Assembly (NCBI GenBank): GCA_913778765.1
Contig: CAJYXO010000116.1
Location: 124,001 to 188,000, forward strand
DNA length: 64,000 nucleotides
Reading direction: 5' to 3'
From: an uncultured Massilia sp.
GTDB taxonomy: Bacteria; Pseudomonadota; Gammaproteobacteria; Burkholderiales; Burkholderiaceae_D
This document shows, piece after piece, positions 6,146 through 9,593 of this stretch. The notes under the pieces were generated by a model that saw nothing but the letters and a program-made list of their open reading frames with translations, was not told the DNA's origin and did not search any database. Made by a program: the position numbers and the translations under genes. Position 1 is the stretch's first letter. Each line of letters begins with the position of its first letter.

Positions 6146-6814
6146 TCAGCGTCCGGCCAGGCGCCCCGGCGCCAGCCGGCCCGCGGTCAGCAGCACGGCC
6201 ACGCACACGAAGGAGGTCAGCAGCACCATCAGGTTGGCGGTGTCGTCCTGCCCGGCCTGCACGGCTTCGTAGACGGCGATCGACAGGGTCTGGGTGCGGC
6301 CGGGGATGCTGCCGGCCACCATCAGGGTCGCGCCGAACTCGCCCAATGCGCGCGCGAAGCCGAGCAGCACGCCGGCCAGGATGCCGCGCCAGGCCAGCGG
6401 CAGGGTCACGCGGAAGAACAGCGCCGCCTCGGACACGCCCAGCACGCGCGCGGCCTGTTCCAGCTGGCCGTCGACGGCCTCGAAGGCGGCGCGCGCCGGC
6501 TTGAACACCAGTGGGAAGATGACGATGGCGGCGGCGATCACGGCGCCCTGCCAGGTGAAGATCAGGTTGATGCCGAAACGGTCGTGCAGCCAGGCGCCCA
6601 GCCAGCCATGGCGGCCGATCAGCACCAGCAGGTAGTAGCCCAGCACCGTCGGCGGCATCACCATCGGCAGGGTCAGCAGGGTATCCAGCAGTTCACGGCC
6701 CGGAAAGCGCCGGCGCGCCAGCAGGAAGCCGACCGCGACCCCGAGCACCAGGTCGATCAGCGTGGCGCAGCCCGCGACCTTCAAGGAGAGCGCCAGCGCC
6801 GACCATGCGTTCAT
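6146..6814 (-). CDS. modB: molybdate ABC transporter permease ModB
   Basis: 222 residues with about five membrane segments. It carries the permease EAA-loop motif (EQAARVLGVSEAALFFRVTLPLAWRGILAG) that docks the ATPase, and the ModB-type sequence ARALGEFGATLMVAGSIPGRTQTL. It forms the inner-membrane channel for molybdate. The ATG overlaps the modA stop as ATGA, and modC begins 9 bp after its own stop, so the genes form one operon. Confidence 0.95.
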   Translation of the reverse strand: MNAWSALALSLKVAGCATLIDLVLGVAVGFLLARRRFPGRELLDTLLTLPMVMPPTVLGYYLLVLIGRHGWLGAWLHDRFGINLIFTWQGAVIAAAIVIFPLVFKPARAAFEAVDGQLEQAARVLGVSEAALFFRVTLPLAWRGILAGVLLGFARALGEFGATLMVAGSIPGRTQTLSIAVYEAVQAGQDDTANLMVLLTSFVCVAVLLTAGRLAPGRLAGR

Positions 6815-7554
6815 GGTGTCTGGAAGCCGTATTTCGCCAGGATCGCCTTCCCCGCCGGCGACAGCAGGTAATCGACGAAGGCCTTGGCCTCGGCCGGATT
6901 GGCGGCGGCGGCGGTGCGCGCGACCGGGTAGCCGATGGCGACATCCAGCGGCACGTCGAAGGCGACCTTGACCTTGTCTTGCATGACGGCGGCGTCGGTG
7001 CCATACACGAAGCCGCCGTCGACCTCGCCGCGCGCCACGTAATCGAGCGACTGGCGCACGTTCTGGGTGTTGATCGCCTTGGCGGAGATACCGGGCCACA
7101 GTTTCGCCGCTTCGAGCGCATGCCGGGTGTAGCGGCCGACCGGCACGCTGGCCGGATTGCCGATCGCGACCTTCTGCACGGCCGGCTGGCCCAGGTCCTG
7201 CAGGCTACCGAGCGCCAGTCTGCCGTCGCGCGGGACGATCACGACCAGGCTGTTGCGCGCGAAGTCGCGGCGCTCGCCCTTGGCCACCAGTCCCGCTTTT
7301 TCGGCCTGGTCCATGGTTTCCATGTCGGCGGAGGCGAACACGTCGACCGGCGCGCCCTTGGCCATCTGCTGCAGCAGGGCGCCGGACGCGCCGAAGTTCA
7401 GCAGCACCTTGGCGCCGGCATGCCGGGCCTCGTAGCCGGCGGCGATGTCGCGGAAGGCGTTGGTCAGGCTGGCCGCGGCGGAGACGTGCAGGTCGGCGGC
7501 TTGCGCAAGGCTGACGGCCAGGCTGATGGCAATCGCTGCGGCAACTTTTTGCAT
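6811..7554 (-). CDS. modA: molybdate ABC transporter periplasmic binding protein ModA
   Basis: About 247 residues from the ATG at 7554, chosen because it opens a Sec signal peptide (MQKVAAAIAISLAVSLAQA) and has GAGGGA upstream; a longer frame exists but starts within the promoter region. The mature part has the type II binding-protein signature of ModA: LHVSAAASLTNAFRDIAAGYE, LLNFGASGALLQQMAKGAPVDVFASAD, and a C-terminal FVDYLLSPAGKAILAKYGF. It captures molybdate or tungstate in the periplasm for ModBC. Confidence 0.95.
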   Translation of the reverse strand: MQKVAAAIAISLAVSLAQAADLHVSAAASLTNAFRDIAAGYEARHAGAKVLLNFGASGALLQQMAKGAPVDVFASADMETMDQAEKAGLVAKGERRDFARNSLVVIVPRDGRLALGSLQDLGQPAVQKVAIGNPASVPVGRYTRHALEAAKLWPGISAKAINTQNVRQSLDYVARGEVDGGFVYGTDAAVMQDKVKVAFDVPLDVAIGYPVARTAAAANPAEAKAFVDYLLSPAGKAILAKYGFQTP

Positions 7555-7585
7555 GACGAAAATCCCTCGGCAATGTGGATAAAAC

Positions 7586-7609
7586 CGCAATATACACGAA
7601 TATATAGCG
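7586..7609 (-). promoter_or_regulatory. ModE operator upstream of modA
   Basis: Read on the minus strand, the palindrome CGCTATATA-N6-TATATTGCG lies 32 bp upstream of the modA start. It closely matches the known E. coli ModE box (inverted CGCTATATA half-sites separated by 6-7 bp), with one mismatch in the second half. Confidence 0.85.
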
Positions 7610-7705
7610 CTGCGTGATCCGGTCCTGACGCAGAGCAGACTCATCCAGCCGGCATGGCGCTACCTTACGCATTGCGCATTGCGCATTCATGCAAAGGAGA
7701 CAACC

Positions 7706-8455
7706 ATGGCACGTTTCGGTGTCGAGGCGATCCGCTACTTCAACCACGCGCGGGCGGCAAACGTGGACACGGCGGGCGACCTCACCTACACCTTCAACCG
7801 GAGTAACGGCCTCGACGCCAAACTGCGCGCGGCCGGCCACACGCGCGCCTTCTACTGGGCGAACACCAACGTCTTCGAAACCGATTTGCGCGACAGCGAC
7901 CAGGGCGGCGACGACCGCCGCTGGGCGGACGACGTCGACCTGTTCTGGATCGAGACCCACGGCAACCACGACGCGGCCGGCCATGCCACGTTGCTGTACG
8001 ACACGCCGGCCACCGAGTGGTTCGGCAACTCCTCGCGCTGGCAGCTGGGCGAGGACTGGAACAACGAATGGGTGATGGCCTATTCCTGCGACACCGCGGC
8101 GCTGGCCACCATCGCCGGCCTGTGGAACATCTTCGCGCGCATGCACATCTTCTGCGGCGCCTGGGACTTGATGTGGGACGGCATCACCACCGACGAATGC
8201 GGCGAGGACGTGGGCGACAACCTGGTCCACGGCGATACCGTGTCGCGCGCCTGGCACGACGGCGTCTCCGACTGGTACGTCGACAACCACCCGGTCACGG
8301 TGTGCGTGGGCGATGCCGCCACCTGGAACGGCGGGAACATCCGCTGGGAGCGCAGCGCGATCAACCGCGATCATCTGTGGGGCCACGGCAGCGTGGACCC
8401 GGACCTGGCGCCTGCCCGGCAGGCCTGCCTGCTGTGGTACTGGACGGAGGGCTGA
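7706..8455 (+). CDS. DUF6345 protein with a caspase-like His-Cys pair
   Basis: 249 residues, ATG preceded by AAGGAGA. No signal peptide or membrane segment, so presumably cytoplasmic. The pattern fits DUF6345: FGVEAIRYFNHA at the N-terminus, FYWANTNVFETDL, then VDLFWIETHGNHD (His85-Gly86 after a hydrophobic strand), WVMAYSCDT (Cys128 after a hydrophobic strand), and HIFCGAWDLMWDG. A hydrophobic strand ending in His-Gly plus a second ending in Ser/Ala-Cys is the hallmark of clan CD peptidases (caspases, gingipains, legumains), so a cysteine-protease-like fold is inferred. Activity is unproven. The next gene starts 4 bp after its stop. It is divergent from modA, with a 7-bp triple repeat (7668-7687) upstream. 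Confidence 0.6.
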   Translation: MARFGVEAIRYFNHARAANVDTAGDLTYTFNRSNGLDAKLRAAGHTRAFYWANTNVFETDLRDSDQGGDDRRWADDVDLFWIETHGNHDAAGHATLLYDTPATEWFGNSSRWQLGEDWNNEWVMAYSCDTAALATIAGLWNIFARMHIFCGAWDLMWDGITTDECGEDVGDNLVHGDTVSRAWHDGVSDWYVDNHPVTVCVGDAATWNGGNIRWERSAINRDHLWGHGSVDPDLAPARQACLLWYWTEG

Positions 8456-8459
8456 CATC

Positions 8460-9395
8460 ATGGACATCCACACCCTGGCCGCATCGCTGCACGACGCGGG
8501 CGCCGGCAAACCGCCGAGCCACGCCGACGTGCTGCTGCTGCAGCCGCTCTCGCGCGAACAGCTGCTGGCCAGAGCGCGCCGCTTCATCGGCCTGCTGCGC
8601 GAACAGGACGGCTGCCCGAACAGGGATGCCGGCAGCTGGAAGCAGACCGACGCCCACACCGTGATCCACCTGCCCGGCGGCGCGCGCGCCGTGCTGTACC
8701 ACGCCTCGGGCGCGCTGCGCTACGTGTCCGGCCTGGCGCCGGCCGCGGCGCCGTTTTCGCGCGGCACGGAGCAGGACACCCTGCTGCGCCTGGTGCAGGA
8801 ACGCGCCCTCAAGCTGCAGCTGGCCGACTGGGCCGGCCATGGGACGCATGCCGGCGCCGAGCTGCGCTTCGAGCACCTGTTCCGCACCCTGGGACGCGGC
8901 ACCGACCGCGCCGGCAAGCAGTCGGACGCGACGCTGTTCCGGGCGATCGGCGCCTACCGCCAGTTCATCGACGGCATTCCGGTGCTGGGCGCGGCTTCTT
9001 GCGCGGTGCAGGTGGCCGGCGAGGGCCAGCTCGACACGCTGGCCATCCTGACCCGTCCCGGCGACGGCGAAGTGCTGGAGCGCGCCGCCGTGATCGCGCC
9101 GGAAGCGGGCGCGCGCCAGATCCTGGCCCAGCTCGCGGCCCTGCTGGGCCAGCGCGACCTGCCGCGCGGCGCGGTCGAGTCGAGCGTCCTGCAGTTCGGC
9201 TACCTGGACCTCGGCAAGCGCAAGCCGCAGCGTGTGCTGGCGCCGGCCTATGTGGCGAAAATCGTGCTGCGCCACCGCCACGTGCGCCAGGCCTATGTGC
9301 TGGCCACGGCGGCAACCGAGCGGCCCTACCTGGACATCCCGGTGTACGGCAGCGCGGCGCCGGTGACGCGCGGCAGGACCGATGTGGGGAGGTGA
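8460..9395 (+). CDS. unknown protein, partner of the DUF6345 gene
   Basis: 311 residues, ATG 4 bp after the DUF6345 stop, with GGAGG inside the upstream gene. The two are almost certainly co-translated. I do not recognise the protein as a whole. Residues about 159-200 (FRAIGAYRQFIDGIPVLG...AVQVAGEGQLDTLAILTRP) resemble the core of FTP/PepSY-type propeptide domains, in which a Tyr-x-x-x-hydrophobic-Asp-Gly-Ile-Pro-Val strand precedes a short Gly-containing hairpin. The N-terminal half has a hydrophilic helix (REQLLARARRFIGLL) and two beta-rich stretches. There is no signal peptide. A regulatory or inhibitory role towards the DUF6345 protein is inference only. Confidence 0.55.
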   Translation: MDIHTLAASLHDAGAGKPPSHADVLLLQPLSREQLLARARRFIGLLREQDGCPNRDAGSWKQTDAHTVIHLPGGARAVLYHASGALRYVSGLAPAAAPFSRGTEQDTLLRLVQERALKLQLADWAGHGTHAGAELRFEHLFRTLGRGTDRAGKQSDATLFRAIGAYRQFIDGIPVLGAASCAVQVAGEGQLDTLAILTRPGDGEVLERAAVIAPEAGARQILAQLAALLGQRDLPRGAVESSVLQFGYLDLGKRKPQRVLAPAYVAKIVLRHRHVRQAYVLATAATERPYLDIPVYGSAAPVTRGRTDVGR

Positions 9396-9425
9396 ATCGG
9401 GCTTGGCCGCGCTTCTCATGATGAT

Positions 9426-9452
9426 GCAGGCCGGCGCGTGGAACCGGCCTGC
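9426..9452 (+). terminator. strong hairpin after the DUF6345 module
   Basis: A perfect 9-bp stem (GCAGGCCGG / CCGGCCTGC) with a 9-base loop starts 31 bp after the stop of the second gene. The downstream sequence ATTCTGT is only weakly T-rich, so this may be a 3'-end stabilising hairpin or a poor intrinsic terminator. Confidence 0.5.
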
Positions 9453-9593
9453 ATTCTGTCGAAAAGCTTTACATGCCAGCTTAAAAAAAACGACTCGGTT
9501 CGCTATCTCATTGATTTCCCAGTACAAAAATATCAGGCATGATAATTGCTTATATTCAAGCATTATAAATATCGGGTCAATATGGGGATCATA

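Follow-up and report, generated by a model that had tools for sequence, protein, structure and literature searches.

Cysteine peptidases of MEROPS clan CD (C14 caspases and orthocaspases, C11, C13, C25, C50, C80, C84 and C123), together with the CHAT proteins, are the closest described counterparts of a DUF6345 protein encoded in the window, the 64,000-nucleotide stretch of DNA from an uncultured Massilia sp. that was analysed here. Like them, DUF6345 has a predicted caspase-like core, with His-Gly after one strand and Ser-, Ala- or Thr-Cys after a later strand, in the same residue order. Unlike them, DUF6345 comes with a PepSY/YycI-like partner. The family is absent from the list of clan CD families in the accessible part of PMC12445089.

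The partner has its own parallels. As in the M4 metallopeptidases with their PepSY/FTP propeptides, a propeptide-like domain is found in cis in several DUF6345 proteins. The partner carries a GIPV-type motif that we take to resemble those propeptides. The DUF6345 partner would serve a protein of caspase fold, where an M4 propeptide serves a zinc peptidase, and the window encodes it as a protein of its own, free of a signal peptide and outside the Pfam FTP and PepSY models. The YycI and YycH regulators of the YycG kinase offer a second likeness, as YycI was the partner's best structural match after 5COZ and its only sequence match in the PDB. However, the window partner has no membrane anchor, no kinase gene was seen to adjoin the pair (both judged by eye), and its neighbour is a predicted caspase-fold protein. 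SleB–YpeB is likewise an enzyme with a partner that perhaps holds it inactive until the partner is degraded (available portion of PMC13393411), and YpeB has PepSY domains (available portion of PMC4282423), but SleB is a spore cortex-lytic enzyme and not caspase-fold. Finally, in the staphopain–staphostatin, SpeB–Spi and Bacteroides C10 operons a cysteine protease is co-transcribed with a separate inhibitor that is thought to be active in the cytoplasm (available portion of PMC3462683). SpeB and the staphopains are papain-fold, however, and the Bacteroides inhibitors are small, at 116-138 residues in B. thetaiotaomicron.

DUF6345 was named in no paper of the open-access literature searched, which is not proof of absence, and the portions of that literature available to the search described no PepSY–caspase-fold pair. 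The first-pass annotation likewise knew of no description of such a pair. The caspase fold and the propeptide idea are already known, while the family assignment, the pairing and the breadth of the pairing appear to be new.

The locus and its surroundings

The coordinates of the two genes agree with the 4-bp spacing given in the first-pass annotation (Table 1), and neither product has a signal peptide when the N-termini are judged by eye, as was also first read. The source genome assembly holds a single copy of gene 1. The strong hairpin reported after gene 2 stands as a perfect 11-bp stem but not as a statistical claim: the 80-nt stretch that contains it folds at -31 kcal/mol with a z of -1.82, and 9 of 200 shuffles were as stable or more so. 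A motif search for a T-run terminator or a promoter at the gene pair returned no match. Upstream, on the opposite strand, lies a gene set presumably for molybdate transport, and the gene downstream of the pair is one that we take to encode a PEP-CTERM-type protein, both by eye.

Table 1. Features of the DUF6345 locus in the window, with subtilisin-like genes near related modules in the last row
Feature	Coordinates	Strand	Remarks
Gene 1	7706..8455	+	249 aa, ATG start at 7706; DUF6345 protein, predicted caspase-like fold, candidate cysteine peptidase
Gene 2	8460..9395	+	311 aa, ATG start at 8460; predicted PepSY/YycI-like partner
AAAGGAG, likely ribosome-binding site of gene 1	7693..7699	+	Six bases 5' of the ATG; read from the sequence
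His85-Gly86, candidate catalytic His	7958..7963	+	Conserved in the DUF6345 survey; aligned with the C14/CHAT HG at low overall probability
Ser127-Cys128, candidate catalytic Cys	8084..8089	+	Conserved among DUF6345 survey genes
FTP-like segment YRQFIDGIPVLGAASCAVQVAGEGQL in gene 2	8955..9032	+	From the translation; similar motif in fused and secreted homologues
Perfect 11-bp hairpin 3' of gene 2, no T-run	9424..9454	+	Stem arms 9424-9434 / 9444-9454
Subtilisin-like neighbours	L087 frame 6194-7999; L079:4899-6218; L099:5345-6601; L130:5360-6565; L110:181-2016	minus (L087)	

Predicted fold of gene 1 and its His-Cys dyad

Gene 1 belongs to Pfam DUF6345 (PF19872), scoring 183.3 bits (E 5.9e-54) against a threshold of 26.9 bits. 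No other Pfam family matched at E 1 or better, and so there was no match to Peptidase_C14 (PF00656). An AlphaFold2 model built on 61 aligned sequences, from which six broken, partial or cut loci were left out (L100, L044, L097, L107, L063 and L129), had a pLDDT of 91.7 and a pTM of 0.92. Foldseek returned 964 matches to it in the PDB (E up to 10), and all of the 50 listed were caspase-fold, among them SAVED-CHAT (the best, E 1.9e-5), caspases including caspase-7, MALT1 and the C11 peptidase iotapain. Among those listed, 26 had E <= 0.001. TM-scores by query length were about 0.37-0.47 for the 50 listed; TM-scores were moderate for the gene 1 and gene 2 models alike (about 0.25-0.5). The caspase-like fold, for which the first-pass annotation had asked for a structure prediction, is thus borne out in the predicted model. 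The same model places H85-G86 after strand 79-83 and S127-C128 after strand 122-126, in agreement with the earlier reading that both motifs lie at strand ends.

When DUF6345 was aligned, profile against profile, with the C14 and the CHAT proteins that occur in this bacterial family, the probabilities were 17.9% (reversed control, 0.2) and 11.7% (reversed control, 1.3), respectively. At these low probabilities, H85 and C128 fell on the CHAT His and Cys, and the C14 alignment covered the His by default and the Cys solely after extension. Searched against PDB sequences, gene 1 alone gave only weak, unrelated matches (best E 0.37), and the 61-sequence DUF6345 profile matched no chain up to E 10.

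Scanning 84,980 species genomes with a DNA pattern yielded 99 loci, 64 of them with a DUF6345 frame. The pattern forces W-x-D-x-V-D and His-Gly and leaves Cys128 free. Conservation of these motifs in the pattern-derived alignments is therefore partly by construction, and the dyad counts were taken from HMM surveys instead. DUF6345 was present in 16 of 294 genomes of the window's family (17 genes) and in 3 of 398 genomes of its phylum, the source genome included (2 genes counted). Four more surveys covered the phyla, assigned by inference, of a Lentzea genome (11 of 246 genomes, 12 genes), a Thorarchaeota genome (9 of 119, 16 genes), an Ardenticatenales genome (11 of 201, 11 genes) and a Methanomethylicus genome (2 of 121, 3 genes). 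Together the surveys gave 61 DUF6345 genes, the window's own among them.

All 57 genes with a readable His column had His there, and of the 58 with a readable Cys column 57 had Cys, the remaining one being Arg in a decayed copy. The His column was unreadable in L037, L164, L192 and L193, and the Cys column in L037, L192 and L193. Five survey genes came from genomes reached via the DNA pattern (L143, L148, L149, L151 and L153); without them the counts were 52/52 for His and 52/53 for Cys. The other exceptions carry Ser. Three Paracoccus plasmid copies, of 7 matching records, have Ser for Cys and keep the His, and L037, which the profile could not align, has Ser for Cys by eye. Seven further DUF6345 genes from other genomes and the three Paracoccus copies were kept outside the 61. 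These Ser substitutions suggest that some DUF6345 members may be inactive. The Paracoccus copies (L038, L039 and L040) are plasmid fusions, and the L039 gene adjoins beta-hydroxyaspartate cycle genes.

The residue pattern was that of clan CD: the His comes first and is followed by Gly, and the Cys has a small residue ahead of it. His85 and Cys128 are kept across DUF6345 with few exceptions, which answers the conservation check set by the first-pass annotation. Judged from the predicted model, the gene 1 product is most likely a clan-CD-type cysteine peptidase, a candidate enzyme.

The partner and its pairing with DUF6345

Gene 2 matched no family in Pfam or NCBIfam. Its AlphaFold2 model, built on 26 aligned sequences, had a pLDDT of 86.5 and a pTM of 0.83, and Foldseek found nine matches in the PDB at E <= 0.001, namely the uncharacterised 5COZ (E 1e-7) and eight YycI 2O3O chains (from E 2.8e-6), with TM-scores by query length of 0.36-0.50. 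The sole match of the partner profile among all PDB sequences, up to E 10, was YycI at E 0.55, over the FGYL...LAP segment. Pfam YycI hit one of 29 distant partner homologues (E 0.031) and Pfam FTP (PF07504) one of 26 nearer ones (E 0.1), neither significantly, and at curated cut-offs the Pfam FTP, PepSY, YycI and C14 models matched no sequence. Gene 2 does not pass as a YycI regulator proper: its PDB sequence match to YycI is at E 0.55, and by eye no kinase gene adjoins the pair.

The predicted fold of the gene 2 product is thus PepSY/YycI-like. The proposal that it resembles a propeptide holds as far as this YycI/PepSY-type fold goes but fails against the Pfam FTP model. The YRQFIDGIPVLG...VAGEG segment on which that proposal was based is present, within a mostly beta region of the model. 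The available portion of PMC4282423 counts YycI among the PepSY proteins and reports that PepSY propeptides act as intramolecular inhibitors.

Profiles of the partner types were compared group by group. The Rubrivivax-type partner profile matched those from Massilia (96.2%), Cellulomonas (97.1%), Thiodiazotropha-type loci (94.7%), Lentzea (92.7%) and archaea (97.6%), with reversed controls <= 0.4%, and also those of G625 (80.6%) and the Paracoccus type (77.8%). Across all Rubrivivax-type comparisons, reversed profiles gave <= 0.5% and C14 and CHAT profiles 0.1%. The Massilia type matched the Paracoccus type directly (88.0%) and gave no direct match to the Lentzea, Thiodiazotropha-type and archaeal domains (0.1-1.8%); its apparent link to these three is indirect, running via the Rubrivivax type. 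The N-terminal regions of Chloroflexota, taken as a group profile, gave 2.9% to the Rubrivivax type, 55.5% to the common partner profile described below and 98.7% to the archaeal profile, the last similarity falling partly in Ig/PKD-like regions.

Within the window's family, gene 2 was found in 13 of 294 genomes, in all 13 directly behind DUF6345 by coordinates, and the spacing was 2-4 bp in the 11 family loci where both genes were read. This survey scored <= 7 candidates per genome and missed divergent or fused partners in the three remaining DUF6345 genomes, where the partner was a C-terminal fusion (G144) or a divergent next gene (G155 and G283).

For the 61 survey genes, a common partner profile was used whose members include sequences from Lentzea and 10 of the 17 partners found in the family survey. 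It assumes homology of its five groups, an assumption checked separately by the family survey and the group-by-group comparison. The neighbour or fused part matched it at >= 50% for 43 genes (42 plus L193), with reversed-sequence controls of 193 candidates at <= 2.6%. Group or wider profiles recovered seven more partners (L148, L169, L180, L181, L149, L153 and L194); reversed controls against the archaeal profile reached up to 17%. In total, 50 of the 61 survey genes have a homologous partner domain beside them or within the same protein. The partner was tentative for seven Chloroflexota genes (L185-L191), and four genes had none: L037 gave no match, L159 and L178 were cut by contig ends and L179 was broken. 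The pair therefore recurs in related and distant genomes more than chance would explain, and co-occurrence of the partner with DUF6345, on which the first-pass annotation had staked its reading, was found both within and beyond the family.

The arrangement varies between lineages. The partner profile located the domain in the gene that follows DUF6345 in records from Massilia, Cellulomonas, Isoptericola, Rubrivivax, Methylibium, Duganella and Roseateles, and in an N-terminal fusion in Lentzea, Thiodiazotropha and one gammaproteobacterial MAG. The window has a split pair free of signal peptides, whereas in G625 the two separate proteins each begin with a signal-like stretch. The Lentzea and Thiodiazotropha fusions resemble pre-pro-enzymes, in which a signal-like sequence is followed by the partner domain. 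Thorarchaeota forms also have it N-terminally, and the archaeal fusions additionally carry Ig-like domains and what look like membrane segments (N-termini and segments all by eye). In Paracoccus the partner domain is fused C-terminally. The two genes also decay together: the Cys128Arg copy has a partner with an internal deletion, and in another genome both genes are broken into several frames, although such broken copies could stem from sequencing errors. Fusion in both orders, kept adjacency and joint decay together make a functional bond between DUF6345 and the partner domain very likely.

Several single loci are recorded here in their own right. The two decaying pairs just described, each with damage to both genes, are L012:1483-2898 (= L063) and L016 (= L100). 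One genome carries two tandem DUF6345-partner pairs ~5 kb apart (L056:1385-3067 and L056:6699-8000; also G108:C351). A Xenococcaceae (cyanobacterial) MAG has a pair (L061:3828-5498) whose DUF6345 is 72% identical to the window's, reflecting either recent transfer or binning contamination. Beyond the pair, an all-against-all BLAST of open frames was dominated by shadow frames in this GC-rich DNA, and by eye just one real neighbour recurred, a gene that we take, from its motif, to be subtilisin-like (S8). It sits beside the DUF6345 module, or close to it, in Methylibium, several Lentzea and one Massilia (Table 1); as subtilisin-like genes are common, this proximity may be chance.

Proposed mechanism, alternatives and meaning

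Taken as a whole, the explanation that we favour, and hold to be on balance probable, is a cytoplasmic caspase-fold candidate peptidase with a dedicated propeptide-like partner acting in trans. Computation supports the pairing, a partner that is homologous from one architecture to the next, both predicted folds and the conserved dyad; the physical binding, the inhibition or chaperoning, the proteolysis and the trigger form the part that we infer. The gene 1 protein would be a cytoplasmic cysteine endopeptidase of caspase (clan CD) fold with a His85-Cys128 dyad. The gene 2 protein, translated right behind it, would bind the enzyme as a propeptide in trans, assisting its folding, holding it latent, or both, and latency would end once the partner was displaced, degraded or rearranged on some cue. 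In other lineages the partner domain shares one chain with the enzyme, or both appear to be separately secreted. The partner is most likely a dedicated propeptide-like inhibitor or chaperone of the gene 1 enzyme, in trans here and in cis elsewhere; SleB–YpeB and the co-transcribed cysteine protease-inhibitor pairs are analogues. A wider version is tentative and, we think, somewhat doubtful: an ancient and hitherto unrecognised protease-regulator system, shared by bacteria and Asgard archaea, that puts a cysteine peptidase of caspase fold under a PepSY-type sensor or inhibitor in cis or trans, and which in Massilia and its kin may have moved to the cytoplasm as a self-contained, stress-triggered switch.

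A partner acting in trans might just as well be a substrate or a sensor. Caspases and gasdermins follow the logic of a protease plus effector pair, and the gene 2 product may likewise be the enzyme's dedicated substrate or effector, activated or destroyed by cleavage, and not its inhibitor. Adjacency and fusions are also compatible with an enzyme-substrate pair, and within the window's family the mean column identity is 67% for the partner (10 sequences) against 89% for the enzyme (13, in partly different sets). However, inhibitor and regulator roles are reported for the partner's predicted PepSY/YycI-type fold (available portion of PMC4282423), and the fusions with an N-terminal partner behind a signal-like sequence look by eye like pre-pro-enzymes. 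We therefore rate a substrate or effector role as unlikely.

We regard it as improbable that DUF6345 has the caspase fold without proteolytic activity and serves as a pseudo-enzyme or binding module whose pair with gene 2 would form a regulatory or sensory complex. The three Paracoccus copies and L037, with Ser for Cys, would suit such a role, as would prokaryotic caspase homologues that have Tyr and Ser for His and Cys and are presumably inactive (available portion of PMC6426788). Against this, only one of the 58 readable survey genes, which span several phyla, has lost the Cys, and that one is a decaying copy; dyad conservation this strong is hard to account for without catalysis.

The toxin-antitoxin or defence role raised in the first-pass annotation found little support and is highly improbable: the pair is patchy (16/294 family genomes), its two genes are tightly spaced, tandem copies occur in one genome and fused relatives lie on Paracoccus plasmids, but PADLOC matched neither gene at E 1 (one homologue gave a stray E 0.028), gene 1 matched no record in phage or plasmid collections, the patterns tried found no relative in viral contigs (a profile search of 2 viral contigs found by DNA pattern gave no DUF6345 frame), and the secreted and membrane-anchored forms fit a cytoplasmic toxin-antitoxin pair poorly.

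With a candidate peptidase and a dedicated inhibitor or chaperone as the preferred reading, a family without known function gains a concrete identity that can be tested, as a candidate cysteine peptidase of caspase fold whose His-Cys dyad is specified and which has a partner of its own. If true, PepSY/YycI-type control would extend to a caspase-fold cysteine peptidase. One module that occurs both fused and split is a natural experiment on propeptides turning into separate inhibitors, and its Thorarchaeota members bear on the history of caspase-like enzymes.
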